64,000 bases of DNA, from assembly GCF_000020665.1 (NCBI RefSeq), contig NC_011071.1:2470501-2534500 (forward strand), read 5' to 3'. Shown here one piece after another: positions 1-26,199 of the stretch. Numbering within the stretch: position 1 is the first letter of the stretch; each line of letters opens with the position of its first letter. The notes beneath the pieces are model-generated. The model worked only from the letters and a program-made list of their open reading frames with translations, was not told where the DNA came from and made no database searches. Both the position numbers and the translations under genes were made by a program. The DNA is from Stenotrophomonas maltophilia R551-3. Its GTDB lineage: Bacteria > Pseudomonadota > Gammaproteobacteria > Xanthomonadales > Xanthomonadaceae.

Positions 1-3000
1 ATATCGCCGGTGCGTTGGATCGTCGCACCTGCTGCATCCTTGTCCGGCATCAGCGTGGCGATGGCCTCACGGCCCCGCAGGTAAGAACCAACACGTGGTC
101 CATTCCGATCGTTGTACTCGCGGCCACCTTCGCGCAGTTCGGCGTAGTAGACCTGGCGAAGGAAGATCCGTTGCTGTTCGCTCGGCAACCGGTCGAACGC
201 AGCCAGCACCTCGGCGCCGTCGACGGCCAGGCCGAAGCGCTGCTGCAGCCACTGCTTCAACTCCTTGTCATAGATCTTCACCGCCTTGCCGGGCTGCGAT
301 GCCAGCGACTGCGCCGGATCGGCCAGGTTGGCCGGGTCCAGGTAGCGCGTGCGCAGTGCATCGAAGTCAATGCCCTGATTGCCGGCAGTCACTGCGATGC
401 TGGCACCGGGACGGGCATCGCCCTGGACGACGCCACCCAGGCTCACGATGCTTCCGGCCTCTTCCTGGCGCAGCTGCCGGCCCGCACTCACTTCAACGTT
501 GCCGGGGCCGGCCACCGTCAGGTTGCTGCGGATGATGTCCCGGCCCGCCTCGATCCCGCTGATATCGGTACCGCTGGTGTTGAGCGCTGTGACGTTCGCA
601 TTGATCACGTCGCGACCGGCGCGCAGCTGTACGGCCGAGCCCGCTTCGTACCAGTCGAACAGTGTCCGGCTCTCCTCGCCGATGTTCCGCCTCAATTGCC
701 TGCGCCCGCCGCTGCCCAACCCGATGATGTCACCGGCAACGGCATAGAAGCGGCTGGGCGACGTGGGCCGGGACGTCAGCGCACCCGTGGTCGGAGTACT
801 GGGGCCGAACGCGAACAAGGGCAGGATCGCCGACGGATCCGCTCCCTGCACCCCATCGTCGGAGAGATTGTGGCCGACCCGGGTCAGGCTGGCGCCCCGC
901 TGGGCCATGAATGCAGGATCAAACGGGCCAGGCAGGCGGGCGTCGCTACCGGAACGTGCAATGCCGGTGGCGTTGATCGCGGCATGGATCGAGCCTCCAG
1001 CCAGAACATCGAGCTGGCCGCTGGCCGAAGGCGCGAGCAGGATCACATCGCCCGTAGTCGCCCCTGGTCCGAGACCTCGAAGCGGGGCGCTGATGATGTC
1101 ACCACTCGCTGCCACCGCGCTGAACCTGGACGGATACAGCCAGTAATTGATGCTGGCGGGAACGGATTGCTCGCGCAGCGCGATGCCTTCAGCGAACATG
1201 TTGCTACCGGTTGCATGCAGACTTCCGGCCAGGCTGGGTGCGAGATTTCCGCCTGCCGAGAACAGGTCCAGTGCCGTGCCTCGGGTCCAGAGCGAGAACC
1301 ACGTCGTGCCAGCTGCATGCTGGCCATCGCCCAGAACCACGTCGTTGTAGTTGGCCGTCGGTACACGCCCTGCATCTGCGGCGCCACCGAGAACAATGTC
1401 ACCACGGGCCTGCAGGCGGGCAGTGGAATCACCCAGAATGAGCAGGGGCCCCGCCATCGCCACCGGGGCGTCCGCCACGAACGGATCCATCAGGCCCAGC
1501 GTTCCGTAGCTGCTCTGTATCGCGCTGAGGCCACCGATGCGTGCCGCCTGCAGCAGGGTGCTGCCGCGCAGGTTGGTCACCGCGCCATTGAGATCCAGAT
1601 CCTGCAGGAAACTCTCCGGCTGCTGCGCGCTGGCGCGCAGGCCAGGATTCAACGCACCGCCACTGCGCAGGGTCAGGTCGCCGCCACCGGTCAGATGCAG
1701 CTCACCATTGCTGACGCGCCCGGTCGACCCGACCGCAGCAACAATCGCGCTGGAATGAGGCGCGGTCAACAGACCCAGGGCATTGCCCATCGGGTCGAGC
1801 ACGCCCGCGTGGCGGCCCGCTTCCAGTGACAGATTGCCGCCTCCCAGCGTGCCGAAGCCGGTGAACCCGACCATGCGGGGAGCTGCGTCCGCTTCGGCGC
1901 CCACGGTGCTGTACGTGCCGAAGTTGATCCACCAGCTCGTCGGTGTTGCCTGGGCGCCTTCGGTGGTGCCCGTACCCTGCCGCCACAACCAGCCGCCCAC
2001 GGCTGCGCTTGAATGCCCAGCCTGGTCGCGCTGCGCCGTACCGGATTCGGACCGGGCGGTCCAGGCGTCGCCGATGATGTCGCGTCCAGCTTCAACCCTG
2101 ACATCGCCGCCATGGTCGGGATACCACGCACGGTAACTGGCCAGCGCCGCATCATAGTTGCCCGAGACCTGGTTCCTGCCCAGCAGCGAGGTGTGCCAGG
2201 GCGCAGCCGTACGCACCGGATTGAACTGGGGGTCGCTGCCATCGCCCAGTAGCGTCGGCGCACCTGCGGTGTACACGCCGAAGCCGGACTTCATGCGCAC
2301 GTCCTGCGCGGCCAGCAGTGCCAGATCACCCTTGCCGGTACGTAGCACGCTCCAAGCCGGCGAGCCCAGGCGCTTGCCGTAGGTGGTCACCTCGGTAAGC
2401 GTACCGCCGCCGTAGCAGTAGCCCATTGCCGCGCAGATCTCTTCCTCCGACATGCCCATCTCGGCGCCCAGTTCCGTAGCCGGGCGGCCGACCCAGGATT
2501 CATCGCCCCACCATGCCAGCGAGCCTTCCTTGTCCACCAGGCGCGGGGCCGGGCCGCAGAAGGCGCCTGCGCCACAGATCTCCGCCTCGGTGGTCCCGAT
2601 GATCTCGGCCACCTCGGCAGGTGACTTTCCGGCCAGACTCTCATCGCCCCACCAGTACAGAGAACCTTCCAAATTGACGATTCGATCACCCTTCCATTCC
2701 GTCGTCTTGGTCACCGTCCCGATGGTGCTGTAGTGGCTGTCGGCCAGCACGATGCTGCCGTCGCTTCCCCAGCTGCGGGTACGCGGATCGGCAGCGGTCG
2801 TATCGGCACCGGCCACTGCAGTCAGATCCCACGAGGTGGTGCCTTCGGGCAGCATCGCCGCCAGCGCCCAGTTGCGTCCCTGGCGCCCGCTGGCGTCGGC
2901 AGGCCGCAGTTTCACCGGCGCATCGCCGGCCAGCTCCACCTTGGTCATCGACGGGATGATCGCGCCGGCATGCAGGTCCACCGCGTCTGACAGCTTCATC

Positions 3001-11594: not shown

Positions 11595-11740
11595 CGGGGA
11601 CCTCGTCAACCTGATGGGCCGCGTCGGCGGCGGCGTGTGTACGGATGGGCCTGCTCGAGGCACGCCCTGCACCTCATAGACGGTGGCGACGGCGTGAAGG
11701 CGACAGGCGCATCACTGTCATGCAGCGGACATACGCGGAA

Positions 11741-11764
11741 GGCGCCGGCATTGCTGCCGGCGCC
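11741..11764. terminator. GC hairpin between DING paralogue 2 and tpsA
   Basis: A perfect 10-bp stem (GGCGCCGGCA / TGCCGGCGCC) with a 4-base loop lies 37 bases after the stop of the second DING gene and 147 bases before the tpsA start. Only a short T run follows on the minus strand, so it may be a weak terminator or an attenuator that lowers tpsA transcription relative to upstream genes. Confidence 0.5.
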
Positions 11765-11800
11765 CTTGTGCGTCTCCTGAAACTACAGAAGCAATTGCAG

Positions 11801-12988
11801 TTACAGCGGACGGCCGATTCCCGAGCAGGTGCTCGGATTGTTCAATGCTCCAGCGTTGCTGGCGTTGACAAAGCGGGAACGGACCGCATCGCGCCAGGCT
11901 TTATTCAGCGGAATGAACCTGTGCGCAACGATGGCGGGATCCTGCGGGCCCTGTTCGACACCGTTGACCACGGTGCTGCCATAGATTCGAAGAAGCCCGC
12001 CGCGAATTCTTGCAGCCACCAGTACATCCTTGTAGCACTGCCCAAACAGGAGATTGGTGGTACCCACGATTGGATATCCTGAGCTCGGGTTGCCGAACCA
12101 CGGCACCCAGTTCGCTGGGTTCTCGGCAGCGGCACCGGCCGGCGGTGGCACGTTATCCAGTGTCGCCTGAGTACTCACGTCCTTTGGAGAGAAGCCCTTG
12201 ACCTGTGCAACTCGAGTAGCATCCGAGAGATCAAGAGACAGGTCTGGACCTGTGTATCCCATTGTTCCGACGGTCGCAAAAATGGCGGCGTACACCGCCG
12301 CGTCACCGGACGCCGGAGCTGCAACAAAGTTCTCGGGAACACTAGTGAAAAGATTGGCGAAGGTCGACTGCACCGAAAACGCCGGCACGCCGTTGGTCAG
12401 CTTCAGCGTGGTGCCTGAGACATCGGCCGGCTGGCAGGCGCTGGTCAGGAAACGGGCCAGAAATTCAGTGGCGCCGCTGCTCTCGCCACGGTAGACAACC
12501 CGAATGGTGCCGGTGCGGGCGCTGTCGATGCTCGACCAGTTGGTGATCTTGCCGGAGAATATCCCGCAGATCCGGGTGACCGACAGGTCAATTGCTGAAC
12601 CAGGCTTGTTGAAGGGAATAATCACCGGAGCCAGCGCAACGGGAATCTGGATCAATGCCCCATAACGGGTGGGATCACCAGCCCGGTTGAAGGTGCTGTT
12701 GTAGCTGTACAACTCGGTGCTGCTCAGTACCGCATCGCTGCCAGCAAAGTGGACAGTCCCCGTCGTCGAAAACAGTGATGGGTCATTGCTCAGGAATGCC
12801 CGCTTGCCGACGCCCGAGCCCCTGGGAGCATAGCTGAACGACGTCGGAAGAATGCTGTCCGGACTCCCTTGGTACAGGGCCGCGGGCATTGTCGCACCGC
12901 CGCCCTGGACAAGAATCTGGGCATTTGCTTCTAGAGTTCCGACCAGCGCGCAGCTGGCCAGCCAGAATGCGTTCAATGGCGGCTTCAT
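11801..12988 (-). CDS. DING/PstS-like phosphate-binding protein, paralogue 2
   Basis: A 395-aa secreted protein. I chose ATG 12988 because it begins a clean signal peptide (MKPPLNAFWLASCALVG, cleavage near ANAQ) and has GGGAG upstream; an ATG at 13030 would add 14 charged residues. The mature N-terminus carries GGGATMPAALYQG, the hallmark of the DING branch of PstS-type periplasmic or secreted phosphate-binding proteins. VPAFSVQSTF and WVPWFGNPSSGYPIVG are conserved with the neighbour at 13087-14280, so the two are tandem duplicates. It probably binds phosphate in the periplasm or is exported by the adjacent T2SS; the export route is inference. A hairpin separates it from its paralogue. Confidence 0.85.
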   Translation of the reverse strand: MKPPLNAFWLASCALVGTLEANAQILVQGGGATMPAALYQGSPDSILPTSFSYAPRGSGVGKRAFLSNDPSLFSTTGTVHFAGSDAVLSSTELYSYNSTFNRAGDPTRYGALIQIPVALAPVIIPFNKPGSAIDLSVTRICGIFSGKITNWSSIDSARTGTIRVVYRGESSGATEFLARFLTSACQPADVSGTTLKLTNGVPAFSVQSTFANLFTSVPENFVAAPASGDAAVYAAIFATVGTMGYTGPDLSLDLSDATRVAQVKGFSPKDVSTQATLDNVPPPAGAAAENPANWVPWFGNPSSGYPIVGTTNLLFGQCYKDVLVAARIRGGLLRIYGSTVVNGVEQGPQDPAIVAHRFIPLNKAWRDAVRSRFVNASNAGALNNPSTCSGIGRPL

Positions 12989-13036
12989 GAAATTGGCAAC
13001 TCCCTGCCTTCTCTGGATACGGTCGTTCATACCGCA

Positions 13037-14280: not shown

Positions 14281-14426
14281 GATCTTCTCCTGAAGGGTTT
14301 ACTGCGAAGGGAAACGCCAAGGGAGGAACGGTCACTACACGCCTGCTGCCGCCGAGGGCCTCCCAGCCCACTCTGCGGCGACGTGTCCATGCTGGTCTGC
14401 GCCGATGACAGGCCGCTTAAGAAACC

Positions 14427-14465
14427 TGTGGAAGATCGAAAAAAGGTGTGGAGGATTGTGTGGAG
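14427..14465. promoter_or_regulatory. Repeated TGTGGA motif upstream of DING paralogue 1
   Basis: The 217-base gap between gspF and the first DING gene holds TGTGGA at 14427, 14447 and 14459; the last two are within an 8-bp direct repeat GTGTGGAG spaced 12 bases. A single CTGTCAT half-site of Pho-box type lies at 14405-14411 on the minus strand. This is a candidate operator or activator site; no consensus was recognised. Confidence 0.3.
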
Positions 14466-14497
14466 AATCGAAAGCGTGCCGTGATGCGCGTTGCGCA

Positions 14498-15697
14498 TCA
14501 CTGCACCAATTGATTCATTTCCATGATCGGCATCAGCACGGCCAGCACGATCGTCAGCACCACACCGCCCATCACCAGGATCATGGTCGGTTCCAGCAGC
14601 GCGGTCAGTGCCATCGCGCGACGTTCGATCTCGCGCGAGATCGTCTGTGCAGCACGATCCAGCAGCGGTGCCAGCGAGCCGGTCTTCTCACCGCTGGCCA
14701 CCAGGTGCACCAGGATAGGCGGATACACCTTCTGCACCTTCAACGCAGCACCCAACGCCGCACCTTCGCGCACGCGCGCGGACACATCATCGGCACAGCG
14801 CGCCAGCAGCGCATTGCCAAGCGTCTGCCGCGCCGCCTCCAAGGCACGCAGCAGTGGCACACCGGCATCCAGCAGGATCGCCAGCGTCGAGGCAAAGCGC
14901 GCACTGTTCACCCCCAGCACGAAACGCCCGACCATCGGCACCCGCAGCAGCATCGCGTCCCACCGCAGGCGCAGCTCGGGCTTGCGCAGGGCCAACCGCC
15001 ATGCCACCACCAACGCAGCGATGCCGAGCCCTGCCCACACGCCCCAGCTGCGCACGAACGCGCTGGCGGCCAGCATCACCTGGGTCAGCATCGGCAGCGT
15101 CTGCCGCGCCTGCACGAACGCGGTCACCACCTGCGGCACTACGTAGCTGAGCAGGAAGATCACGATCGCCACCGACACCAGGCTGATCGCCGCTGGGTAG
15201 ATGAAGGCGGTCAGTACTTTGGCCTGCAGCGCGTTGCGTTCTTCGATGTAGTCGGCAAGGCGCTCCATCACCCGCGCCAGGTCACCGGAGTCTTCACCTG
15301 CGCCCACCAGCGCCCGATAGATCGGCGGGAAATCGCGCGGCCGCGCGGCCAGCGCAACGGTCAGGCGCTGGCCGGCACGCACGTCGGCGCGTACGGCGGT
15401 GAGTGCCTGGGCCACATGCGGGCGCTCGGCCTGTTCGATCACCGCAGTCAATGCGGCTTCCAACGGCAGGCTCGCGGCCAGCAGGCTGGCCAGCTGGCGC
15501 GTGGCCCAGGCCAGCTCGCTGGCAGACAGCCGGCGGGCGCCCCAGCCACTGCCCGCACCGCGCGCCGCGCTGACCTGCACGGGTGTCAGCCCGCGACCGC
15601 GCAGCAGCTGGCGTGCGCCGCGCGGGCTGTCGGCGTCCAGCTGACCCTTCTCGATGCGGCCCTGCGCGTTGGCAGCCTGGTAGTCGAACAGTGCCAT
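14498..15697 (-). CDS. gspF: Type II secretion inner-membrane protein GspF
   Basis: A 399-aa GspF/PilC family platform protein. It has two tandem T2SSF domains, each followed by hydrophobic segments (LTAFIYPAAISLVSVAIVIF and ALTALLEPTMILVMGGVV, the family's signature tail). The N-terminus MALFDYQAANAQGRIEKGQL and MERLADYIEERNALQAKV are typical. It forms the membrane platform that couples the GspE ATPase to pseudopilus assembly. It starts 7 bases after gspE and is the last secretion gene before the DING genes. HxcS is the positional equivalent in P. aeruginosa. Confidence 0.95.
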   Translation of the reverse strand: MALFDYQAANAQGRIEKGQLDADSPRGARQLLRGRGLTPVQVSAARGAGSGWGARRLSASELAWATRQLASLLAASLPLEAALTAVIEQAERPHVAQALTAVRADVRAGQRLTVALAARPRDFPPIYRALVGAGEDSGDLARVMERLADYIEERNALQAKVLTAFIYPAAISLVSVAIVIFLLSYVVPQVVTAFVQARQTLPMLTQVMLAASAFVRSWGVWAGLGIAALVVAWRLALRKPELRLRWDAMLLRVPMVGRFVLGVNSARFASTLAILLDAGVPLLRALEAARQTLGNALLARCADDVSARVREGAALGAALKVQKVYPPILVHLVASGEKTGSLAPLLDRAAQTISREIERRAMALTALLEPTMILVMGGVVLTIVLAVLMPIMEMNQLVQ

Positions 15698-15704
15698 GCA
15701 GGCC

Positions 15705-17138
15705 TCAGTCGTCGCCCGTGACGCGCAGGATCTCTTCCAGCGTGGTCACCCCGCTGTCGACCCAACGCTGGCCGTCCTGGCGCAAGGTCCGCATGCCGGC
15801 ACGCCGCGCCGCCTCGCGCAGCGCAGGTTCACCCTGCCCTTCATGGATCAGCGCACGCACGCGATCGTCCACCACGAACAGCTCGTGGATGCCGGTACGC
15901 CCCCGGTAGCCGCTGTTGGCGCAGGCCGCGCAGCCAACCGCACGCCACACGGTGTGGCCTTCGCCATCCACCTCGGCACGCCGGCACTGCGTGCACAGGC
16001 GCCGCACCAGCCGCTGCGCCAGCACGCCGCGCAACGAGGACGCCAGCAGAAAAGGCTCCACGCCCATGTCGGCCAGGCGGGTCACCGCCGAGATCGCATC
16101 ATTGGTGTGCAGCGAGGCCAGCACGCCATGGCCGGTCAGCGACGACTGGACCGCGATCTGCGCGGTCTCCAAGTCGCGGATCTCTCCGATCATGATGGTG
16201 TCCGGGTCCTGGCGCAGGATCGCACGCAACGCGGTACCGAAACTCATGCCAATGCGCGCGTTGACCTGAATCTGGCCGATACCAGCGAAGTCATACTCCA
16301 CCGGGTCCTCCACGGTGAGGATGTTGCTGGTGCTGCTGTCGAGCTGGCCCAGCGCCGCATATAACGAGGTGGTCTTGCCGCTGCCGGTCGGGCCGGTGAC
16401 CAGCACGATGCCGTGCGGCTGCCGGATCAGGCCGGTGAACGTGGCCAGGGTGTCATCGGCCATGCCCAGGCGCTGCAGCTGCAGACGGCCGGCATCCTTT
16501 TCCAGCAGGCGCAGCACAGCACGCTCGCCATGCCCGGTCGGCACCGTGGAGACACGGATGTCCAGCGGACGCCCACCCACGCGGATCGCGATGCGCCCGT
16601 CCTGCGGCAGCCGCTTCTCGGCAATGTCCAGGTGGGCCATGATCTTGATGCGCGACACCAGCGCCGCGTGCAGTGCGCGCCGCGGCTGCACCATGTCGCG
16701 CAGGGTGCCGTCCACCCGGTAGCGCACCACCGAGTGGGTCTCGAATGGTTCGATGTGCAGGTCGCTGGCGCCATCGCGTGCGGCCTGTGCCAGCAGCGCG
16801 TTGATCATGCGGATCACCGGCGCATCGTCCTGCGCGTCCAGCAGATCGGTGACTTCCGGCATGTCCTGCATCAGCCGGTCCAGATCGACTTCGCTTTCAG
16901 CGGCGCCGACCACGGCAGCGGCATCGCCGCCGTCACGGTACTGCTCACCCAGCCGCTGCTGCCAGGCCGCTGCATCCAGCGCCTGGAACGGCAGCGGGCC
17001 ATGCCGGCGGCGCAGTTCGGCCACGGCCCACGCCGCAGTTTCGGCGGTGCCCAGCAACACGGCCTCGCCGCCCGCCTCGGACAGCATCACGCCATGGCTG
17101 CGCACCCAGGCGTACGGCAGCGGCGCGGCGGCGCTCAC
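15705..17138 (-). CDS. gspE: Type II secretion ATPase GspE
   Basis: A 477-aa cytoplasmic secretion ATPase. It carries the Walker A motif GPTGSGKTTSLYAAL (about residue 245), the Asp-box/Walker B region DPDTIMIGEIRD, a His box (TGHGVLASLHTND) and a C-terminal zinc-binding tetracysteine motif, CTQC followed later by CAAC. It powers pseudopilus growth. The start overlaps the gspD stop (ATGA), indicating translational coupling. HxcR is the positional counterpart. Confidence 0.96.
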   Translation of the reverse strand: MSAAAPLPYAWVRSHGVMLSEAGGEAVLLGTAETAAWAVAELRRRHGPLPFQALDAAAWQQRLGEQYRDGGDAAAVVGAAESEVDLDRLMQDMPEVTDLLDAQDDAPVIRMINALLAQAARDGASDLHIEPFETHSVVRYRVDGTLRDMVQPRRALHAALVSRIKIMAHLDIAEKRLPQDGRIAIRVGGRPLDIRVSTVPTGHGERAVLRLLEKDAGRLQLQRLGMADDTLATFTGLIRQPHGIVLVTGPTGSGKTTSLYAALGQLDSSTSNILTVEDPVEYDFAGIGQIQVNARIGMSFGTALRAILRQDPDTIMIGEIRDLETAQIAVQSSLTGHGVLASLHTNDAISAVTRLADMGVEPFLLASSLRGVLAQRLVRRLCTQCRRAEVDGEGHTVWRAVGCAACANSGYRGRTGIHELFVVDDRVRALIHEGQGEPALREAARRAGMRTLRQDGQRWVDSGVTTLEEILRVTGDD

Positions 17139-19516
17139 GGCCCGATCACCAGTTCCGGCGTGTAGCCGAGTCCGCGCAGCTGCTGCAGTGCCGGGTCCAG
17201 CGTCGCCGGATCGCGTGGCAATCGCACGCGCAGGCGTTGCCCGCTCTCGCCGGGCGTCGCTTCGGCATACGCCTGCAGGCCCAGTGCCCGCACCTGCGCC
17301 ACGCCTTGGCTGGCACTCGCGGGGTCCAACCCATGCGCGAACTGCACCAGCTGGGCATCGCCCTCACCGGCCGGATACAACGCCGCCAGGCTGGTGTTCT
17401 GCAGCGGCTGGCCCTGTCCATCGCGCGCATTGCCCTGGCCGAGCACAGACAAGTCCTGCGGTGGCAGCTGCGGCGCCGACAAGGCGGGCAGTGCCCAGCT
17501 CTGTACCGGCTGCGTGCCGGCCTGTGCATTGCGCATGTAGTCGTAGCGGTCGCGGGTCAAGCGCTGCCCGGCGGCAGGGTCACGCACCACGTGCGGGCGC
17601 AGGAACACCATCAGGTTGGTCTTGGCGCGCTTGCGCGTGTCGCTGCGGAACAAGGCGCCCAGCACCGGGATCTTTCCCAGCCCCGGCACCGCATCACGGC
17701 CATGGCTGACGCTGTCTTCCAGCAGGCCACCCAGCACCATGATCTGGCCGTCGTCCAGCAGCACGCTGGTATCCAGGGCGCGCTTGTTGGTGATGATGCC
17801 GACCGTGCTGTTCGCGCTCTGCGCGTCGATGCTGCTGACTTCCTGGTAGATGTCCAGCTTCACCGTGCCACCCTCGGAGATCTGCGGGCGCACCCGCAGC
17901 TTCAGGCCCACGTCTTCGCGCACGATGGTCTGGAACGGGTTGTTGCTGCCGCCACCACCGTCGGTCACGTAGCGACCGCTGACAAACGGTACGGTCTGGC
18001 CGACCATGATGCTGGCCGCTTCGTTGTCCAGCGTCATCAGGTTCGGCGTGGACAGGATGTTGGCACCGCCCTTGCTCTGCAGCGCGTTGGCCAGCGCCTT
18101 CATGTTGAGGATCTGACCGACGCCGGGCAGGTTGATGGTGCCGTCGATGACGCCGATCTTCAGACCGTCCTTGGGCAGCACGTCCAGCGTGGTGCGCGCG
18201 GCGGTGTTCAGGCCGCTGCCGCCGTTGGTACCACCGAAATGGGTGCCGCCGAAGGTGCGGCCATTGCCCAGCATCCACTGCACGCCCAGTTCGGCCGCGT
18301 CGGTCTGGTTGACTTCCACGATCAGGCTTTCCACCAGTACCTGTGCACGGCGCTGGTCGAGCTGATCGATCACCCGCCGCAGGTTGCGGTACACCGGCTC
18401 AGGCGCCGAGATCAGCAGCGTGTTGGTCGCCACGTCGGCCTGCACCGAGATGCCGTTCTGGCTGAAACCGGTGCTGCCGGCATCAATCGGATCACGGCGA
18501 TTCGGGTCCAGCCGCTGCGACTCCAGCGCATTGCCACCGGTCTTGGCCTGCTGTGGCTGCGACGGTTGCGCGGGTGTGGAACGGTTTGCATCGCCGGGCA
18601 GTGGCGTGATGCCTTCGTTGCTGCCCATTGCCGGTGCATCGCTCTGCCCGGCCACCACGCCGCGCAGCACACCGGCCAGCTGGTTGGCCTGGGCATTGCG
18701 CAGGTAGACCACATGCAGATTGCCGGACTCGTCCTGCGCCTTGTCCAGCTTCTCCACCAGCTGCCGCGCCAGGCGGGTACGGCCGGGGCTGCTGGAGCGC
18801 AGAAGCACGCTATTGCTGCGCGGGTCGGCCATCACCACCACCTTCTGGTTGGGTTCGGCACCCTGCGCATCCAGCAGCGGCGCGACCATCGCCGCCACGT
18901 CGACGGCGATACCCTGCTGCAGCTTGACCACGTCGGTGTCCATGCCCGCCGGAGTGTCCACGCTGGCAATCACCCGCGCGATGCGTTCCAGGTTGTCGGC
19001 GTAGTCGGTGATCACCAGGGTGTTGTTGCCCGGGTTGGCAGTGATCGGATTGTCCGGGCTGATCATCGGCCGCAGCACCGCTACCAGCGCGGCGGCATTC
19101 TCGTAGCGCAGCGCGAAGGTGCGCGTGGCCACCTCGCCGCCGGCCCCGCCGGCGCCCACACGCCCACCAAGCAGCTTGGCGTCGGCCTGCGGCACCACCC
19201 GGCTGACACCGCCGTTCTCGACCACGGCAAAGCCACGCATGCGCAGTGCGCCAAGCAGCAACTGGTAAGCCTGGGTACGGCTGACCGGGCCATCAGAGAC
19301 CACGGTCATCTTGCCGGTCACCCGCGGGTCGACCAGAAACTGGCGACCGGTGAAGCGCGCCGCCATGCGCAGTACACCGCCGATATCGGTCTCCACCAGG
19401 TTCAACTGCACCGGCTCATCGCGGGCGTCCTGCGCCAGCACCGGTGCCGGAACGTGGGCCATGCCCACCACCAGGGCCAGCGCGGTGCTGCAGGCAAGGC
19501 TGCGCATCACCCTCAT
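17135..19516 (-). CDS. gspD: Type II secretion outer-membrane secretin GspD
   Basis: A 793-aa secretin. ATG 19516 overlaps the gspM stop (ATGA) and begins a signal peptide ending near VLAQDA; an ATG at 19507 is also possible. The order is an N0 domain (VQLNLVETDIGGVLRMAARF), N1-N3 repeats with the NTLVITDYADNLERI and NSVLLRSSSPGR motifs, a Gln/Pro-rich linker, and a secretin domain with NLMTLDNEAASIMVGQTVPF and the terminal MVFLRPHVV motif. A C-terminal extension of about 130 residues follows the secretin domain. It has no lipobox, unlike HxcQ, which I recall as a lipoprotein that self-targets, so a pilotin may be required. Confidence 0.95.
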   Translation of the reverse strand: MRVMRSLACSTALALVVGMAHVPAPVLAQDARDEPVQLNLVETDIGGVLRMAARFTGRQFLVDPRVTGKMTVVSDGPVSRTQAYQLLLGALRMRGFAVVENGGVSRVVPQADAKLLGGRVGAGGAGGEVATRTFALRYENAAALVAVLRPMISPDNPITANPGNNTLVITDYADNLERIARVIASVDTPAGMDTDVVKLQQGIAVDVAAMVAPLLDAQGAEPNQKVVVMADPRSNSVLLRSSSPGRTRLARQLVEKLDKAQDESGNLHVVYLRNAQANQLAGVLRGVVAGQSDAPAMGSNEGITPLPGDANRSTPAQPSQPQQAKTGGNALESQRLDPNRRDPIDAGSTGFSQNGISVQADVATNTLLISAPEPVYRNLRRVIDQLDQRRAQVLVESLIVEVNQTDAAELGVQWMLGNGRTFGGTHFGGTNGGSGLNTAARTTLDVLPKDGLKIGVIDGTINLPGVGQILNMKALANALQSKGGANILSTPNLMTLDNEAASIMVGQTVPFVSGRYVTDGGGGSNNPFQTIVREDVGLKLRVRPQISEGGTVKLDIYQEVSSIDAQSANSTVGIITNKRALDTSVLLDDGQIMVLGGLLEDSVSHGRDAVPGLGKIPVLGALFRSDTRKRAKTNLMVFLRPHVVRDPAAGQRLTRDRYDYMRNAQAGTQPVQSWALPALSAPQLPPQDLSVLGQGNARDGQGQPLQNTSLAALYPAGEGDAQLVQFAHGLDPASASQGVAQVRALGLQAYAEATPGESGQRLRVRLPRDPATLDPALQQLRGLGYTPELVIGP

Positions 19517-20040
19517 GGACGGCCACCCACGGTGGGTGCCATCACGATGTTTCCGGAAATCCGTGCCACCGGCATGTTCGCGTCCCCTGTGCGTGTCAAT
19601 TGCAGCTGCTGCAGTTCGATGGCCGGATCGGCCAGCACGGGCAGCAGCCAGTTCCACAGCGCGTCAGCGGGCACCGCCTGCACCTGCAGGTGCCAGCGCC
19701 CGTCGCGTGCGTCGATATGCAGTCCGTCGGCAAGGCCGGCGGTCTTGATCTGTCCGCGCAGCCCAGCCAGCGTCGGCTGATGCCCCTGCGCCAGTTGCTG
19801 GCGTTCGCGGGCGTGCAGCAGCGGCGCCAATACGCGCGCCTGCGCCTGCAGCCGTGGCAGTTCGGCCTGCCAATGCGTGCGCAGCTTCAGCAGTGGCTCC
19901 AGCCACAACATCCACAGACCCGCCGCCAGCAGCGCCACCACCATCACCCACAGCATCAGCCGGTCGCGCGGCGGCAGGCGCTGCCAGCGCAGCTGCAGGC
20001 CTGCCAGACCTTCGCCCAGGCGCAGCGTCCTGGCAGTCAC
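19513..20040 (-). CDS. gspM: Type II secretion protein GspM
   Basis: A 175-aa bitopic membrane protein. GTG 20040 is preferred because it overlaps the gspL stop (GTGA). A cytoplasmic stub (RWQRLPPRDRLMLWV) is followed by one transmembrane segment (about residues 28-46), a predicted coiled coil and a small ferredoxin-like periplasmic domain. LPPRDR before the membrane segment and the coil after it fit the T2SSM family. It partners GspL in the inner-membrane platform. Identification rests on order and topology as much as on sequence. Confidence 0.85.
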   Translation of the reverse strand: MTARTLRLGEGLAGLQLRWQRLPPRDRLMLWVMVVALLAAGLWMLWLEPLLKLRTHWQAELPRLQAQARVLAPLLHARERQQLAQGHQPTLAGLRGQIKTAGLADGLHIDARDGRWHLQVQAVPADALWNWLLPVLADPAIELQQLQLTRTGDANMPVARISGNIVMAPTVGGRP

Positions 20041-21200
20041 TGCCCGCCCCCGCTCACGCGCAGGCGGCCGCCCGCGTCCCGCACCAGTTGCAGACCCTGC
20101 GCCTGTACGGCCTGCTGCCATTGCTCCAGCCGTTGTGCGTCATCGGCCAATATCCGTGCGTTGTCATCCAGCTCCAGTTCCAGCTGGCCCGGCGTGTAAT
20201 GCAGACCACGCACCTGACCACCCAGCTCCGGCACTGCCTGCAGTGTGGTGGCAACCTGCCGCTGCACCGGTGGCAACGGCGGCGCCGGCAACGGCACCGC
20301 CAGCGCGCGCCGCGCCTGCAGTACCGGGTCCACCACATCGGTGATCTCCGGGAAGCGCGCACTGAACTGCCGCGCCATGTCCTGCTGCAGCGCCTCGCCC
20401 TCGCTGCGCCAGCGCGAGACCTGCAGCTGCAGGCCCAGCGCCGCCAGCACCAGCGCCGCCACTGCCAGGCCGACTGCCAACCGCGGTGCCTGCCTGCTGC
20501 GGCCCGGCAGTGGCAACGACCACGCTGGCAGGGGGCCGCACGCCTGTAGTTCATGCGCGACCACGGTTGCCGGCAGACTCTCCGGCCACACCGACGGCAC
20601 GCTGTCGATCCATTGCACGGCCTGCACCCCGGATTGCTGCAGGCGCGCCGCGAGCGACTGCAGCACCGCCCCCACGTCGCGCCCACCGCACCACTGCACA
20701 ACGCCACGATCGCGCCCGCAGCGCACCAGCAGATGCTCACCGTCAGCCTGCAGCGTTGCCTGGCCGTTCTGCCACGGCAGCAGCAGCGGCGTCGGATACA
20801 GCGCCTGAAGCTGCAGTGCGCACGAGGCCAGCAGCTGCTGCGCCTGCATGATCGCCTGCTGCCCGAGCCAGGCCACCGGCACGCTGCCATCGGCCGCCTG
20901 GGTACCATGCGCCAGCGCGACCTCCTGCAGGTCATCCAGCAGCATCGCCTCCACTTCACCCTGCAACGCGGCCTGCAGCCTGCGGCCCGACAGCGGCGGC
21001 AGCTGCAGCTCCAGCAGGATCAGATCCTGCGGATCGAGGCAGGCCAGCACCCCTGCCTGCGGATGACGCTGACCCAGCACGGCCAATGCGTCGCGGCCCT
21101 TGGCCAGCACCCCACCCTTGTGCAACTGCGCCCACTCAACCGCACTGTCGGCACACAGGCGTTCCAGCGCCGGCAGGCGCACCCTCAGCTGCACGCTCAT
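20037..21200 (-). CDS. gspL: Type II secretion protein GspL
   Basis: A 387-aa protein starting at ATG 21200, which overlaps the gspK stop (ATGA). The N-terminal part is an actin-like cytoplasmic domain that docks GspE. A transmembrane segment (VGLAVAALVLAALGLQL, near residue 230) and a periplasmic ferredoxin-like domain follow. The sequence is Gln-, Leu- and Arg-rich, as common for GspL in high-GC genomes. It lies between gspK and gspM in the standard order. Confidence 0.87.
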   Translation of the reverse strand: MSVQLRVRLPALERLCADSAVEWAQLHKGGVLAKGRDALAVLGQRHPQAGVLACLDPQDLILLELQLPPLSGRRLQAALQGEVEAMLLDDLQEVALAHGTQAADGSVPVAWLGQQAIMQAQQLLASCALQLQALYPTPLLLPWQNGQATLQADGEHLLVRCGRDRGVVQWCGGRDVGAVLQSLAARLQQSGVQAVQWIDSVPSVWPESLPATVVAHELQACGPLPAWSLPLPGRSRQAPRLAVGLAVAALVLAALGLQLQVSRWRSEGEALQQDMARQFSARFPEITDVVDPVLQARRALAVPLPAPPLPPVQRQVATTLQAVPELGGQVRGLHYTPGQLELELDDNARILADDAQRLEQWQQAVQAQGLQLVRDAGGRLRVSGGGQ

Positions 21201-22102
21201 GCACCGATCCTCGTCCACACACGCTGCACGCGCACACTGTCGTCGCGGTACTCGCGCCAGATCAGCGCGCGGAAGTCGACCACACTGCCATCGGCCTGCA
21301 CCTGGCCGACGGCGAGGAACCACTCGCTATGGATGCCAAGCGGTACCACCGCCATCTGCGCGTTGCTCAGTTGAAGCCGATTGGCGATGTCGCCGCGGTT
21401 GAGCAGCCAATGGCCACCATCGCGCTCACCGAGCAGCGCCTGCAGGCGCCCGGGTTCGACACTGGGTACGACCGCCTGCAGGACGCTGAGATCGCTGGTG
21501 TTGGCGTTGACCAGGGTCTGCGCAGGCAGCACCACGGTGCGCCGTGCCAACGCCTGCACGGCCATTGGATCGGAACCCGCGAAGGCCTGCTCGATCAGTG
21601 ATTCACGCGGCAACGGAGCCTGCGCCTGGACATCGCCATCGCGCAGGCGCGCCTGGATGTGATCCGCCGCAGACGCACAGGCACCCTGCCCCAGGCCCTG
21701 CCCGGAGCACAACGCGATGAACGCGCGCCGCGCTTCCGGGTCCGGCTTGCCGTAGGCCAGCAGGTTGCGCAGGTTGAACATGGACTGCGCATCGACCAGC
21801 TGCAGCTGCACTGGCAACGGCGCCTGCAGCTGCAATGGCCGCGCCCAGCGCCCGTTGCGGACCGTGGTCAACTGTTCGCGCACATCCTCACGCAGCTGCT
21901 GCGCGGCACGCTCCAGCGTCGCATCCACGGCCATGCGCACCTGCGCACGCAGCTGGTCGCCACGCAGCGCGCGCAGCTGCGCCGACTGCCGGGTCAGCAG
22001 CGCGGTGGCGATCACGGCCACCAACGCCACCACCAGCATCGCCACGATCACCGCCATGCCGCGCTGGCGGGCGCACGAAACCGAACACTTCCTGGCTGCC
22101 AT
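21197..22102 (-). CDS. gspK: Type II secretion minor pseudopilin GspK
   Basis: A 301-aa minor pseudopilin. The prepilin signature RQRG followed by MAVIVAMLVVALVAVIATALL lies at about residues 13-37, with the cleavage site after Gly. GspK lacks the Glu at position 5 found in other pseudopilins, as here. The large alpha-helical domain inserted in GspK is consistent with its length. GspK normally tops a tip complex with GspI and GspJ; neither gene is present nearby. It starts 9 bases after gspG. Confidence 0.92.
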   Translation of the reverse strand: MAARKCSVSCARQRGMAVIVAMLVVALVAVIATALLTRQSAQLRALRGDQLRAQVRMAVDATLERAAQQLREDVREQLTTVRNGRWARPLQLQAPLPVQLQLVDAQSMFNLRNLLAYGKPDPEARRAFIALCSGQGLGQGACASAADHIQARLRDGDVQAQAPLPRESLIEQAFAGSDPMAVQALARRTVVLPAQTLVNANTSDLSVLQAVVPSVEPGRLQALLGERDGGHWLLNRGDIANRLQLSNAQMAVVPLGIHSEWFLAVGQVQADGSVVDFRALIWREYRDDSVRVQRVWTRIGA

Positions 22103-22111: not shown

Positions 22112-22549
22112 TCAGAGCTGCCAGGAACCGACGTCCGCGTTCCCGGCGTCACCGCCGGGCTTGCTGTCCGCGCCCAGCGAGAACACATCGATATCGCCAT
22201 GGGTGCCGGGAATCTGGTACTGGTACGGGTGACCCCACGGATCATTCGGCAGCCGGTCCAGGTACGGCGTGACCGGCATCGTGCCGCTGCCCTGTGGCGG
22301 CTTCACCAGCGCCTGCAGGCCCTGCTCGGCACTGGGGTAGCGGCCATTGTCCAGCTTGAACAGCTTCAAGGCCTGCATCAGCGCGGCGATATCCTGGCGC
22401 GCCGCAACCACCCGCGCCTGGTCCGGGCGATCCATCAAACGCGGCACGATCAATGCGGCAAGGATGCCGATGATCACTACCACCACCATGATCTCGATCA
22501 GGCTGAAACCCTGCTGCCGAGCCCTGCGACCACCCACCTGCCTTGCCAT
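22112..22549 (-). CDS. gspG: Type II secretion major pseudopilin GspG
   Basis: A 145-aa major pseudopilin with the prepilin peptidase site QQG / FSLIEIMVVVVIIGILAALIVP (Glu at mature position 5) and the GspG-specific tail motifs LDNGRYPSAEQGLQALV, DPWGHPYQY and DVFSLGADSKPGGD. The last of these is the calcium-binding loop of the family. It forms the pseudopilus shaft. A prepilin peptidase (GspO/PilD) must be supplied from elsewhere. The upstream gap of 57 bases separates it from the unknown paralogue pair. Confidence 0.96.
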   Translation of the reverse strand: MARQVGGRRARQQGFSLIEIMVVVVIIGILAALIVPRLMDRPDQARVVAARQDIAALMQALKLFKLDNGRYPSAEQGLQALVKPPQGSGTMPVTPYLDRLPNDPWGHPYQYQIPGTHGDIDVFSLGADSKPGGDAGNADVGSWQL

Positions 22550-22606: not shown

Positions 22607-23191
22607 TCAGTACGATAAACATCCGCCTGCTATTCGCTGCGGCTGTGCCTGCAGCGGTGCAGCACGTACCGCTGGCGCACACGCCGCTTCAAGCAACGGA
22701 GATGGAAGGCTGCCCAGCGTGTCGTCGATACAGGCCCGCAGCAGTGGATGTGCGCAGGCCTGCAACAGACGTACGCACTGCATCGGCGACCAGGCCGTGC
22801 CGTGGTCGAGGCCGATGAACTGCCGGTAGGCCTGGTGGTAGCGCAGATCGTCGTACACGCGCTGCGCGCTGTTCAGGCCGCGCATCACCACCAGCAATGC
22901 CGCGCGTTGCAGCACGCGCACATCACCGGCCTCAAGCGGCAGCAGCGCCGCCGCACATTCGGGCCAGGGCCGCAGTTGCGGGTCGAGCGCCCTGCGCAAT
23001 GCCAGCAGCGGATGCGACGAACTGTCCAGTGCAGCCCAGCGCGCGGCGTCGGCCCAGGCGTCGCTGGACAGCACCCAGACCCATGAATGCCCGTAGCGCT
23101 GCACGTTCAATGGTGCATGCCGCGCCTGTTCCAGCGACTGGCTCAGGTGGCGATCCAGTTCCAGCATATTGATCCTGCGACTGTCTGCCAT
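22607..23191 (-). CDS. Unknown protein, paralogue B: Phd/YefM-like N-terminus, DUF772-like C-terminus
   Basis: A 194-aa protein, start at ATG 23191 chosen because it aligns with the start of its paralogue at 23312-23863; upstream GGAG is distant, so the start is uncertain. Residues 8-48 (LELDRHLSQSLEQ, PLNVQRYGHSWVWVLSSDAW) follow the pattern of Phd/YefM antitoxin N-domains: short helix, then a strand pair around RYG. Residues about 105-165 (RVYDDLRYHQAYRQFIGLDHG) recall the DUF772 N-terminal segment of IS5/IS1182-type transposases. There is no membrane segment or prepilin signal, so it is not a hidden pseudopilin. There is no toxin gene beside it. Function unknown; DNA binding or secretion-operon regulation is inference. 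Confidence 0.75.
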   Translation of the reverse strand: MADSRRINMLELDRHLSQSLEQARHAPLNVQRYGHSWVWVLSSDAWADAARWAALDSSSHPLLALRRALDPQLRPWPECAAALLPLEAGDVRVLQRAALLVVMRGLNSAQRVYDDLRYHQAYRQFIGLDHGTAWSPMQCVRLLQACAHPLLRACIDDTLGSLPSPLLEAACAPAVRAAPLQAQPQRIAGGCLSY

Positions 23192-23311: not shown

Positions 23312-23863
23312 TCACAGCAACGTCATCCGCCTGCAGGTTTCGCGATCCAGCCGTGGTGCGTCGCCACCGCATCGCCGCGCCAGCACCGCCACGTCGCTGC
23401 GCTGCGCGAACGCCGCCAGCACATCGGTCATGCCTGCGTCATCCAGCCATGACGCCATCGCGACACGCAGCGCTGGCAGCTGCCAGCCGTCCATCACGCC
23501 ATGGCCGCCGGCCACAAACCAGTGCCACAGGCGCTGCTGCTGGACCTGCTCGTGCAGCTGCGGAAGATCATCGATGCCGTGCATGTCCGCCAGCAGCAGC
23601 GCACGGGCGATCGCCGCCGGCGGCAACACGCCACTTTCGGGCAACGGCACAGCCTGCTGCTGCAGGCGCAGCAGCATCGCCAACGGGTGTGACTGCGGAT
23701 CGAACTCAAGCAGCACTGCTTGTTGTTGCCAGTGCGCATCGGACACCACGCACACCCAGGGCGATCCATAGCGATGCACCATCAACGGCCGCCGCTGCGT
23801 GGTTTCCAGCAACGCCGACAGGTTGCGACGCAGATCCAGCACACCGATGGTCTCGTTGCGCAT
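23312..23863 (-). CDS. Unknown protein, paralogue A: Phd/YefM-like N-terminus, DUF772-like C-terminus
   Basis: A 183-aa protein starting at ATG 23863 with AAGGAG nine bases upstream. The N-terminal 50 residues (IGVLDLRRNLSALLE, RPLMVHRYGSPWVCVVSD) look like a prevent-host-death antitoxin domain. The C-terminal half (LHEQVQQQRLWHWFVAGGHG, LRVAMASWLDD) is shared in pattern with the paralogue at 22607-23191. Shared positions include LxxxLSxxLE, PLxVxRYGxxWVxV, HPLxxL and a late (F/I)xxG. It follows the anti-sigma gene by 58 bases on the same strand, so the pair is probably cotranscribed with the regulatory genes and gsp. It is soluble by appearance, and the role is unknown. Confidence 0.78.
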   Translation of the reverse strand: MRNETIGVLDLRRNLSALLETTQRRPLMVHRYGSPWVCVVSDAHWQQQAVLLEFDPQSHPLAMLLRLQQQAVPLPESGVLPPAAIARALLLADMHGIDDLPQLHEQVQQQRLWHWFVAGGHGVMDGWQLPALRVAMASWLDDAGMTDVLAAFAQRSDVAVLARRCGGDAPRLDRETCRRMTLL

Positions 23864-23921: not shown

Positions 23922-24902
23922 CTAACCAAGGACGGCAATGCCACCCGGAAAGCGACGCAGATCCAGTGACATCGTCAGTCGCAGCTGCTCCAGCGCTGCA
24001 TCGGGATCATCGATGCGGAAGCGGCCGCTGACCGGCGCGCGGGCCAATGCCGATTCGCCCAGCATTACCTTGCCACGGCGATAGCGGTTGATCTCGTCCA
24101 CCACCTCGTGCAGCGGCGCGCGGCGAAACACCAGCATGCCTTCGGTCCAGGCGCTCACGTCCGAGGCCACGGCCTCGGCCACCACGCCACTGAGGCGCTC
24201 GTCGTACTGGGTCTGCTGGCCCGCCTGCAGCTGCAGCCGGCCCTGCGGATGCTCGATGCGGGCGCTGCCATGCAGGCAGGTCACCCGCACCTGGCCATGG
24301 GTGTTGCGTACGTCGAGGCGCACCGCACCTTCATCAGCGATCACGCAGCCCGGTCCAGCGAACAATGCAAGGCGCAGGCCAGGCTGGGTTTCGATCGCGG
24401 CCTGGCCCTGTACGAGCTCGAAGCCTTCGCCCTGCGCGTCCGCACGGCGGCGCAGGCTGCTCTGGGTGTCCAGCTCAATCTTCAGCTGTGGCGAAGGCGC
24501 GATCTGCAGCCGCTCACCGGTGCCGGTATGGAAGTCGGCCGCCATCGCCGTCACCGATGGCCACAGCCCCAGCGGTGGGCGGATCGCCGCCACCACTACC
24601 AGACTGGCCGGGGCGGCAATCGCTGCACCGAGGAAGGCACGACGGCTCCAGCGCTGCGCAGGACTCGCGGCAATTGCCTGGCGCGCAGCGGCGGGCAGCT
24701 GCTCGCCGGCCAGGCGCACCTGCTCCCATTGCCGGCGCGCGCGGCCGAATGCTTCACGATGGAGAGGATCGGCCTCGCACCACGCCCGGAACCTGCGCCC
24801 GTCGGCGGCGGTGGCTTCGCCCGAGGTCAGGCGCACCACCCACGCGTGGGCCTGACGCTCGACGGCATCCAGCGGGCGTTGCGGGCGATCGTCAGGATCC
24901 AT
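23922..24902 (-). CDS. FecR-type anti-sigma factor (VreR-like)
   Basis: A 326-aa protein with the classic FecR layout. A cytoplasmic anti-sigma domain of DUF4880 type occupies residues 1-80 (ERQAHAWVVRLTSGEATAADG, FRAWCEADPLHREAF). A transmembrane segment (about residues 89-107, RAFLGAAIAAPASLVVVAAI) is followed by a periplasmic FecR domain (FHTGTGERLQIA, LVQGQAAIET, VRVTCLHGSARIEH, LQAGQQTQY). A C-terminal secretin/STN-like domain holds GRFRIDDPDAALEQLRLTMSL. It would hold the neighbouring sigma factor until the STN protein at 25519-26199 signals. The start is 69 bases after the sigma gene. Confidence 0.92.
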   Translation of the reverse strand: MDPDDRPQRPLDAVERQAHAWVVRLTSGEATAADGRRFRAWCEADPLHREAFGRARRQWEQVRLAGEQLPAAARQAIAASPAQRWSRRAFLGAAIAAPASLVVVAAIRPPLGLWPSVTAMAADFHTGTGERLQIAPSPQLKIELDTQSSLRRRADAQGEGFELVQGQAAIETQPGLRLALFAGPGCVIADEGAVRLDVRNTHGQVRVTCLHGSARIEHPQGRLQLQAGQQTQYDERLSGVVAEAVASDVSAWTEGMLVFRRAPLHEVVDEINRYRRGKVMLGESALARAPVSGRFRIDDPDAALEQLRLTMSLDLRRFPGGIAVLG

Positions 24903-24971: not shown

Positions 24972-25502
24972 TCAGAACCGCACCTGGCGCCCCTGCCCGC
25001 TGCGCTCGGCCAGATAGTCCTGGGCCGCCTTCAGTTCACGCTGCACCAGCCGCAGCGACACGCCGAGGTGATCGGCCACATCACGCTGCTGCAGGCCATC
25101 AACACGGATCGCCAGCAGGATGCGGCGGCGGCGCTCGGGCATGCGCTGCAGCAGGCCGACCATGTCCTCCAGCGCGAATTCGAGCTCGGCGGCCTGTGCC
25201 GGGCCCGGACCCGGGTCGGCCATGTCCATCAGCGTATCCACCTCTTCCAGGCTCAGCAGGCGATGATCGGCCCGCTGGCGGTCGATCACCGTGTTCATCG
25301 CCATGCGCAGCAGGTAGGCCGCCGGGTTCTGCACCGCATCCAACCGGTCACGACGAGCACTTAGACGCATCCAGGTGTCCTGCAGTGCATCACCGGCCAG
25401 TTCTTCCGAGCCGAGCTTGCGCACCAGGCGGCGCTTCAGCTCGTCGTAGGCCCCCAGAAGGTGGTCCATCAGGTCAACTGCCCCAGCCGTACCGTTGCTC
25501 AT
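24972..25502 (-). CDS. FecI-type ECF sigma factor (VreI-like)
   Basis: A 176-aa sigma-70 family ECF factor. ATG 25502 has AAGGA seven bases upstream; a start at 25544 would run into the preceding gene. Region 2 includes LAGDALQDTWMRL and NPAAYLLRMAMNTVIDRQRA, and region 4 includes LQRMPERRRRILLAIRVDGL followed by a helix-turn-helix, QRDVADHLGVSLRLVQREL. It is preceded by the STN-TonB gene (16-base gap) and followed by fecR, the arrangement of iron-starvation and PUMA3 surface-signalling modules. It probably drives the secretion, DING and TpsA genes downstream; that is inferred from context. Confidence 0.92.
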   Translation of the reverse strand: MSNGTAGAVDLMDHLLGAYDELKRRLVRKLGSEELAGDALQDTWMRLSARRDRLDAVQNPAAYLLRMAMNTVIDRQRADHRLLSLEEVDTLMDMADPGPGPAQAAELEFALEDMVGLLQRMPERRRRILLAIRVDGLQQRDVADHLGVSLRLVQRELKAAQDYLAERSGQGRQVRF

Positions 25503-25518
25503 GTTCGAATCCTTGAAG

Positions 25519-26199
25519 TCATGGAAGGGGCGAGCGCCGGCCACAGTCGTGGTCGGTGCCGGAAGGTCGGATCTGCAGCGTTACCGGCTGCGGCAGCGCA
25601 GCGGCCTCGGCCGCCAGCACCAGGCCCTGCAACGCCTGCAACAGGCGTGCATCGCGGCGGGCGCTGCCACTGCCTGAGAGCAGCTCGGGCGCATGCACCT
25701 GGCCTTCGCTGTCGACGTGGAAGCGCAGCGTCGCGGCATAGCGGCCGGGCGCGATCTCGGGGTCGTCACAGAACGCCGCACGCAGGCGCTGCTGCAGCCC
25801 GCCATAGCGACGCCGACGCTCGGCCTCGGGAAGTTCGGCACCAGTACCAGGTTCGGCGACCGAGGGCGTGCCCCGGCGCAGCACCACGCGCTGCTCACCG
25901 ATCATCTCGGCCTCGATGCCGGTGCCCTGCAGCAGCGCCTGCAACGCGGGGAGTGGCGGCAAGCTGGCCCTCAACGCGTGACTGCTGCGCCCGGCGGCAA
26001 GGTCACCCGGGTACATCACCGACCACCCACTGATGACACTGAAGCGCTCGACCGCCTGTTCCAGCGGCTGCGCAGGGATGTCGTAGGCATGAACACCGTC
26101 CTGTGCGGCAGCGGCAAAGGACAGCAGCAGCCATGCGGCGATGGCCACCTTCCAAGTTCTGACCGCATGGTGTCCATTCAGCCCCCTGACGTAGAACAC
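25519..26199 (-). CDS. STN-domain protein with TonB-like C-terminus (VreA-like surface-signalling component)
   Basis: About 226 aa. No ATG suits; GTG 26199 with GAGGG upstream is my best start, and GTG 26148 is an alternative. A signal peptide (VAIAAWLLLSFAAAAQ) leads to an STN domain (YDIPAQPLEQAVERFSVISG, LQALLQGTGIEAEMIGEQRV), the periplasmic signalling fold found at the N-terminus of TonB-dependent transducers and secretins. After a linker comes a TonB C-terminal-like domain (YAATLRFHVDSEGQVHAPEL, a pattern of energy-transducer C-termini). There is no beta-barrel. This is the architecture I recall for P. aeruginosa VreA, which with a sigma/anti-sigma pair activates genes under phosphate limitation. 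Confidence 0.82.
   Translation of the reverse strand: MFYVRGLNGHHAVRTWKVAIAAWLLLSFAAAAQDGVHAYDIPAQPLEQAVERFSVISGWSVMYPGDLAAGRSSHALRASLPPLPALQALLQGTGIEAEMIGEQRVVLRRGTPSVAEPGTGAELPEAERRRRYGGLQQRLRAAFCDDPEIAPGRYAATLRFHVDSEGQVHAPELLSGSGSARRDARLLQALQGLVLAAEAAALPQPVTLQIRPSGTDHDCGRRSPLP

Follow-up and report, generated by a model that had tools for sequence, protein, structure and literature searches.

What kind of system, if it is one system, is encoded by a long run of signalling, secretion and surface-protein genes in Stenotrophomonas maltophilia R551-3? The run lies in a stretch of 64,000 nucleotides (bases 2470501-2534500 of the 4.57 Mb single-contig genome), called the window here, and positions below are window positions. 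A first-pass annotation had read on one strand an STN-TonB protein, an extracytoplasmic function (ECF) sigma factor, a FecR protein, two small genes, gspG-K-L-M-D-E-F of a type II secretion system (T2SS), two DING proteins and a giant two-partner secretion (TPS) exoprotein, TpsA. Open frames and domain matches bear this out: all of these genes are present, on the minus strand and in that order. The locus is real, conserved and largely of a known kind, newly placed in Stenotrophomonas. We consider it probable that the S. maltophilia group has in it a PUMA3/Hxc/Pdt locus like that of Pseudomonas aeruginosa, which would follow the phosphate-starvation course proposed below. It also has a property that is new and general for this kind of locus, namely that lineages swap the DING gene together with tpsA, as a single cassette, and the machinery stays in place.

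A Locus of the P. aeruginosa Kind

The likeness was examined against 50 kb of the vre-hxc-DING-pdt region of P. aeruginosa PA7, with 26 proteins of the locus as queries. All but one (25/26) match this region, on 23 frames; the sole non-match is x1, a small Phd-like gene. Seventeen minus-strand genes keep the PA7 order: vreA-I-R, gspG-K-L-M-D-E-F, DING, tpsA, tpsB, exbB, exbD, tonB and the porin. The order that the first-pass annotation ascribed to P. aeruginosa stands for these genes; gspH-I-J, gspC, the PhdA genes and a small secreted gene are placed elsewhere. By sequence, the GspE ATPase is of the Hxc type, far closer to HxcR of PA7 (73% identity) than to its best paralogue in its own genome (54%), and the next PA7 paralogues reach 59% and 55%; by these pairwise identities the match to the Hxc T2SS of P. 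aeruginosa came out as the first-pass annotation had predicted. Identities to the PA7 counterparts are 73% for ExbD, 52% for ExbB, 47% for the porin, 43% for DING1 and 34% for VreA, and TpsB is about 51-53% identical to the TpsB of the PA7 locus, against 27% for the next PA7 match.

At the head of the locus, the vreA-like receptor (25519..26199) has an STN signalling domain and a TolA/TonB-like C-terminal domain. Both domains also appear in its predicted structure model; VIA-align rows for this protein span mostly residues 34-114, and the homologues that carry names are almost all from Stenotrophomonas, chiefly S. maltophilia. As in PUMA3 systems, the receptor has no TonB-dependent beta-barrel, and vreA, vreI and vreR are adjacent and upstream of the hxc and tps genes. 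The vreI-like ECF sigma factor (24972..25502, with an alternative start at 25544) and the vreR-like FecR-type anti-sigma factor (23922..24902) are 41% and 38% identical to those of PA7. The two small genes that follow were present as the first-pass annotation had it; they had been called unknown, and both are homologues of PhdA (the PA0691 family). The one at 23312..23863 is 29% identical to the PA7 protein (E 8e-13) and the one at 22607..23191 is 30% identical to the same protein (E 5e-12). The PA7 PhdA protein itself, encoded between tpsA and tpsB, matches DUF772 and has a PhdYeFM_antitox match below the curated cut-off.

The T2SS genes of the window begin with gspG (22112..22549), which encodes an HxcT-type major pseudopilin 66% identical to that of PA7. 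It is followed by gspK (21197..22102) and gspL (20037..21200), both recognised by domain and PA7 match; gspM (19513..20121; 35% over 138 aa to PA7) and the secretin gene gspD (17135..19657; 64% over 341 residues to PA7), both with uncertain starts; gspE (15705..17138); and gspF (14498..15697; 68% to PA7). Then come the leader of the first DING gene (14281..14497), DING1 itself (13087..14280), a DING/LAP-type phosphate-binding protein, and DING2 (11801..12988), an accessory DING-type protein 69% identical to DING1. The locus closes within the window with tpsA, which starts at 11594, runs through base 1 and ends at window position -804. Its open frame holds 4158 aa, or 4132 aa counted from the chosen ATG, and the product carries a TPS secretion domain (E 1e-25) and DUF3739, with 44% identity to PA7 over 4309 columns.

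The locus exceeds the window. The first-pass annotation had advised looking left of base 1 for a TpsB gene, and it is found there, together with the rest of tpsA and further genes. They lie in the stretch L006 (window -19999..0; subtract 20000 from an L006 coordinate to obtain that of the window). On its plus strand are gspJ (L006 18120-18734), gspI (17761-18123), gspH (17312-17764) and the gene for a small secreted protein (16323-16658, or window -3677..-3342). On its minus strand are gspC (16750-17214), tpsB with ShlB and POTRA_2 domains (14505-16130), exbB (12682-14490), exbD (12258-12671), tonB (11553-12254), a Porin_5 gene (9765-11540) and x1 (9338-9667). With H, I, J and C added to G, K, L, M, D, E and F, the core T2SS set is complete at 11 gsp genes, and TpsA with its TPS domain has a TpsB gene nearby. 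The ExbB protein is unusual in that a DUF2341 and a laminin-G (LamG)/lectin-like domain are fused N-terminal to the channel part, and it aligns with its PA7 counterpart over 602 columns. These comparisons support the earlier reading of one functional system in a refined form, in which ExbB, ExbD, TonB and the porin belong too and four of the gsp genes lie beyond the window.

Much of this has precedents in Pseudomonas, where the hxc-DING-tpsA and vre-hxc-tps associations were published in 2007 and 2009. The VreI regulon and gene order of P. aeruginosa were described in 2009 (PMC2729926), in a paper that also reports the association of PUMA3 with TPS and ExbBD genes in P. fluorescens, P. entomophila, Burkholderia, Rhodopseudomonas and Janthinobacterium; neither Xanthomonas nor Caulobacter is mentioned in its main text. 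The P. aeruginosa locus, PA0674-PA0699, has the same parts, namely a barrel-less receptor, ECF sigma factor, FecR-type regulator, T2SS, DING/LAP, TpsA, PhdA, TpsB, ExbB-ExbD-TonB4 and porin (PMC2729926, PMC7035377), and the ExbB2-ExbD2-TonB4, porin and PhdA annotations are given in PMC7035377. It differs in having one DING gene in PA7, compared with two here. P. fluorescens SBW25 is described with the series hxc, DING and giant TpsA (pflu2428, 4083 aa) (PMC2225411); DING secretion was proven by experiment there, whereas the Stenotrophomonas locus is known from its sequence. For S. maltophilia K279a, a GSP and an XPS locus are reported, both encoding a T2SS with 11 genes (PMC11089167). By this published gene count, the T2SS of our locus is probably the S. 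maltophilia Gsp system. The genes gspD, F, G, H and J are listed as additional in S. maltophilia relative to S. rhizophila (PMC7404187), and the T2SS substrates named in PMC11089167 and PMC5003817 are for XPS only. As the first-pass annotation had supposed, no description of the locus as a unit in Xanthomonadaceae was found in the open-licence PubMed Central (PMC) literature. For alleles of PA0690 and PA0689, nothing relevant stood among the literature matches listed.

Distribution and Core of the Locus

The genus set comprised 37 genomes, our own and 36 others, and 24 further genomes came from other genera of the order. A full-length VreA orthologue (at least 50% identity) is present in 16/37 of the former, and the latter gave partial STN-type VreA matches or none. 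DING is present in exactly the same 16 genomes. Across these 16 loci the 25 genes counted have identical order and strand throughout, with x1 missing in G031. This constancy and the gene-by-gene homology to PA7 mean that the combination of genes is more than chance. In a gyrB tree covering 30 of the 37 genomes, 14 of the 16 carriers fall within one clade of 16 genomes, where G009 and G011 are found without the locus.

A wider survey for VreA covered 149 genomes of the family and 369 of the class, with up to 19 and up to 7 candidates scored per genome, so its counts are lower bounds: full-length VreA occurs in at least 8 family genomes, from 4 of 54 genera, and in at least 2 class genomes. Four of the eight family genomes lie outside the genus. 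Three of them (G172, G209 and G153) have a module of vreA-I-R-tpsA-tpsB-exbB-exbD-tonB-porin, and the fourth (G080) has two vreA-I-R-tpsA loci, with 20 kb read of each. No T2SS gene was detected in the stretches read around these modules. Vre-TPS-ExbBD modules without a T2SS detected nearby mean that the T2SS is separable, and the signalling/TPS module looks like the core to which T2SS and DING were added. Stand-alone vre-tpsA loci also occur in three genomes of the genus itself (G021, G023 and G027). Within the modules of G153, G080 and G209 there are an x1-like gene and a DING-like gene which is closer to DING than to PstS. The x1 relatives there adjoin the DING-like gene (L193; L190; L191/L192), and x1 itself stands beside the porin gene.

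The small secreted protein is proposed as a further, uncharacterised and hitherto unnoticed part of this core. It is present in 25 of the 27 loci examined: 16 genus loci, PA7, P. aylmerensis (these two representing the Pseudomonas loci L029-L048 in the count), Achromobacter, the three stand-alone loci, G172, G209 and one of the two G080 loci; the two loci without a hit are the second of G080 and that of G153. It was absent from a 20 kb stretch of P. brassicacearum that has no vre genes. In all 8 loci of the Pseudomonas or stand-alone type that have it, the gene is found upstream of vreA and in the opposite orientation, and in G209 it is 1.4 kb away. Two cysteines of the protein and a QRP near its end are invariant; the protein matches no Pfam family and is modelled with a mean pLDDT of 64. 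It has 522 homologues, and of the 120 listed those with names are called hypothetical or "secreted".

Farther afield, Achromobacter shows this combination too, with the order largely kept, from gspG to the porin; vre genes were not found in the 60 kb of Achromobacter read. The series gspF, DING, tpsA recurs in 16/16 Pseudomonas loci in which gspF was found, PA7 included, with two DING genes in L040 and L043. DING at E<=1e-20 is present in 1/25 genomes of the PA7 genus set, which is PA7 itself.

Exchange of DING and TpsA as One Cassette

Among the 14 close loci of the genus (the distant G003 and G031 were left out), DING and TpsA both fall into five classes. Class A comprises G000, G010, G022, G032, G033 and G036; class B G005, G006, G017 and G026; class C G001 and G021; and classes D and E have one member each, G008 and G035. 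TpsA is 61-71% identical between classes and 84-96% within them, and DING 63-77% and 88-99%. Across the same loci the flanking gspF and tpsB genes are 94-99% and 89-99% identical, and the other locus genes are mostly 80-99% identical to those of G000, the lowest being gspM of G026 at 63%.

The DING class equals the TpsA class in 14/14 genomes. In Mantel comparisons, DING and TpsA (residues 650-3700) correlate with r 0.96, a value reached in 0/2000 permutations, against -0.28 to 0.13, none significant, for DING versus ten other locus genes and gyrB. Both the DING and the TpsA tree recover classes A, B and C as clades. On the gyrB tree the five classes need 7 changes (minimum 4; shuffled mean 7.3, with 169/300 shuffles as low), and near neighbours differ in class, as G006 (B) and G001 (C) do; on a tree of conserved locus genes, 8 changes are needed. 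The agreement of classes, the Mantel contrast and the scatter of classes on the gyrB tree together lead us to conclude that DING and tpsA move as one cassette.

In the class pairs tabulated (8 of 10), TpsA is 66-89% identical over the first ~750 residues, 33-85% over 751-3750 and 92-98% over the last ~230. Upstream, the gspF end and DING leader are 83-100% identical between classes, except for the first 50 bases after gspF (68-82%), and the DING-proximal ~170 bases of the leader are 93-100% identical between the classes compared. The N-terminal tags of DING vary between classes. Among the 12 TpsA proteins of classes A-C (D and E have single members), no window of mixed class was observed ahead of residue ~3800, with the exception of the N-terminal 200 residues of the two class-C proteins. 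Polymorphic two-partner exoproteins of the CdiA type are known to combine a conserved secretion domain with an exchangeable variable part. The present TpsA differs from them in that its C-terminus is conserved and its middle variable, and the partner which varies with it is DING, not an immunity protein.

DING as a Candidate Cargo

The mature form of DING1, which belongs to class A, is identical to chain A of PDB entry 5jk4 over 373/373 residues. This chain begins where, by eye, the signal peptide of DING1 is expected to end, and DING1 matches the DING protein 2q9t with about 267 bits. By sequence relationship DING1 is a member of the DING/LAP family, in what appears to be an exported and processed form. 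The depositors labelled 5jk4 an alkaline phosphatase and 5j1d a phosphate-binding protein. Gene adjacency and the signal peptide judged by eye make DING the likely cargo of the T2SS. DING genes also occur elsewhere, with neither tpsA nor a T2SS gene in the fetched stretches (32, 32 and 16 kb): two in G001 and one, split, in G006 (L227, L229, L231). The idea that every DING requires an adjacent TpsA was rejected on account of these genes.

Regulatory Sites and the Phosphate Link

Regulation of the locus may be read from two sites. Upstream of vreA is a Pho-box-like site, CGGTCAT-N4-ATGACAT (26301..26318, minus strand), with 3 mismatches to CTGTCAT-N4-CTGTCAT. Of 11 loci aligned (out of 16), 9 share its core, GTCATCGCAATGACAT, unchanged, and G003 and G031 have it altered; the site is conserved amid a variable upstream region. 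Upstream of tpsA is a promoter-like pair, TGTCGNCTT-N14-CGTCTA (11677..11705, minus strand), a candidate VreI promoter. The strict pattern lies at -106 to -114 of tpsA in 14/16 Stenotrophomonas loci (absent in G001 and G035); it is single in 13 of them and occurs twice in G006, the second copy ahead of the second DING gene. The strict pattern was found in none of PA7, P. aylmerensis and Achromobacter; by eye, a CGTCTT- or CGCCTA-like element seems to stand upstream of tpsA in PA7 and other Pseudomonas.

As a control, 4 Pho-box-like hits were found around a PstS-type gene in L001, compared with 0.22 expected, and 0 in the adjoining L002. These two stretches (G000:C1:1495938-1498523) hold two neighbouring PstS-type proteins that are ~73% identical. 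In P. aeruginosa, PhoB control and the promoters of the vre system have been described (PMC4971064), and pho boxes are reported at vreA, pdtA and phdA (PMC2729926, PMC4971064, PMC7035377, PMC9769906). The putative phosphate link in Stenotrophomonas would rest on homology, the conserved site at vreA and the DING genes.

Proposed Course and Alternatives

The course we propose starts with phosphate starvation, upon which PhoB would activate vreA-vreI-vreR, as homology and the conserved Pho-box-like site suggest. If P. aeruginosa is a guide, a second envelope signal would then pass through periplasmic VreA to the FecR-type anti-sigma factor VreR and free the sigma factor VreI, which, probably with PhoB, would drive the operons for the 11-gene Hxc-type T2SS, DING and tpsA. 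By the example of Psp in P. fluorescens, the T2SS would export processed DING, which may bind phosphate or cleave phosphate esters extracellularly. TpsB would export TpsA to the surface, and ExbB-ExbD-TonB and Porin_5 may energise and perform a linked outer-membrane step. DING and TpsA pass between lineages as one cassette and leave the machinery where it is.

Several points weigh against this account. The genes gspH-I-J and gspC lie in the tpsA-tpsB interval here and in Achromobacter, but between vreR and gspG in PA7; the small secreted gene, divergent from vreA in PA7, stands here in the gspC-tpsB interval; and PhdA has two copies after vreR here, compared with one between tpsA and tpsB. The window has 3 Pho-box-like hits against 4.2 expected by chance, so the hit count proves nothing (in L006 it is 2 versus 1.3, likewise not above chance), and the Pho-box-like site at tpsA is not conserved between classes. 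In SBW25, hxcR is plant-induced and not phosphate-induced although psp is phosphate-induced (PMC2225411), so that T2SS and cargo need not be co-regulated. A title cited in PMC9960084 also terms a crystallised phosphate-binding protein of S. maltophilia periplasmic. The SBW25 finding and the Pho-box-like hit count, with the removal of VreR that full output in P. aeruginosa needs even at low phosphate (PMC4971064), would suit a locus that answers mainly to another signal, such as surface contact or a host or plant compound, with phosphate secondary or irrelevant in Stenotrophomonas. We think this unlikely, given a site at vreA that is kept inside a variable region and a cargo family that binds phosphate. 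The crystal title, and vre-tpsA modules that include a DING-like gene but showed no T2SS gene over the stretch read, fit a DING that stays in the periplasm as a phosphate-binding or phosphatase protein, the Gsp T2SS exporting a product encoded elsewhere. That is quite improbable in our view: T2SS (Hxc) secretion of LapA/DING-type proteins has been demonstrated in other species (PMC2225411, PMC7035377), Psp of SBW25, encoded at the same gene position, depends on Hxc and needs HxcR for most of its export (PMC2225411), and gspF adjoins DING in 16/16 Pseudomonas and 16/16 Stenotrophomonas loci. Hardly any credence is left for unrelated modules lying side by side by chance, which the family genera with a vre-TPS-ExbBD module and no T2SS gene nearby might suggest, when the same combination recurs in largely the same order in Stenotrophomonas, Pseudomonas and (gspG to porin) Achromobacter.

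What the exchange of DING with TpsA means is a closer question. The two genes are adjacent, and linkage alone can explain their co-transfer: homologous recombination between the conserved flanks, formed by gspF and the DING leader and by the TpsA C-terminus, would swap them merely as neighbours, with diversifying selection on TpsA alone. We put this slightly on the favourable side of even. The conserved DNA that frames the block speaks for it, as do vre-tpsA loci in which the stretches read contain neither DING nor T2SS; the DING genes of G001 and G006 without tpsA in the stretch speak against an obligate pairing. Pseudomonas gives evidence of both kinds. In a sample of 16 loci, selected by DING peptides, TpsA also tracks gspF (r 0.86), but DING tracks TpsA as well (r 0.67), and still does with gspF controlled for (partial r 0.68), more weakly than in Stenotrophomonas; in one pair of loci gspF is 100% identical with DING and TpsA both at 76%. 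The concordance in all 14 genomes persists although a different second DING is interposed in 4/14 loci, which is mildly against pure linkage; a further point against it is the DING-like gene in the vre-tpsA modules of G153, G080 and G209, where the stretches read showed no T2SS gene. A matched surface pair is a more tentative proposal, and we regard it as rather doubtful: the TpsA fibre would hold the T2SS-secreted DING of its own class and so form a phosphate-catching adhesin, whose old alleles would be exchanged whole between species under diversifying selection, with VreA, the T2SS, TpsB and ExbB-ExbD-TonB as a conserved platform for any class.

Neighbouring Genes

In relatives that lack the locus, an empty site was located neither with the right-flank protein (9 genomes) nor with DNA of the left and right flanks (5 genomes); the flanks are themselves variable. 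Right of the locus (28428-30466, plus strand), the gene for a PAS-domain protein overlaps that for a flavodoxin-type reductase, of which close copies were found in G035, G036 and G027 and none in G009 or G011 (9 genomes searched). There are two further very long open frames outside the locus, at 53922-58766 on the minus strand (1614 aa) and 40400-45532 on the plus strand (1710 aa).

Significance

The machinery of this locus is conserved while DING and TpsA are exchanged jointly, a pattern suggesting that the giant adhesin may function together with the phosphate-binding protein. For S. maltophilia, an opportunistic pathogen, the finding gives its second T2SS a likely cargo in DING, a likely regulator in VreI with PhoB, and a likely trigger in phosphate starvation.

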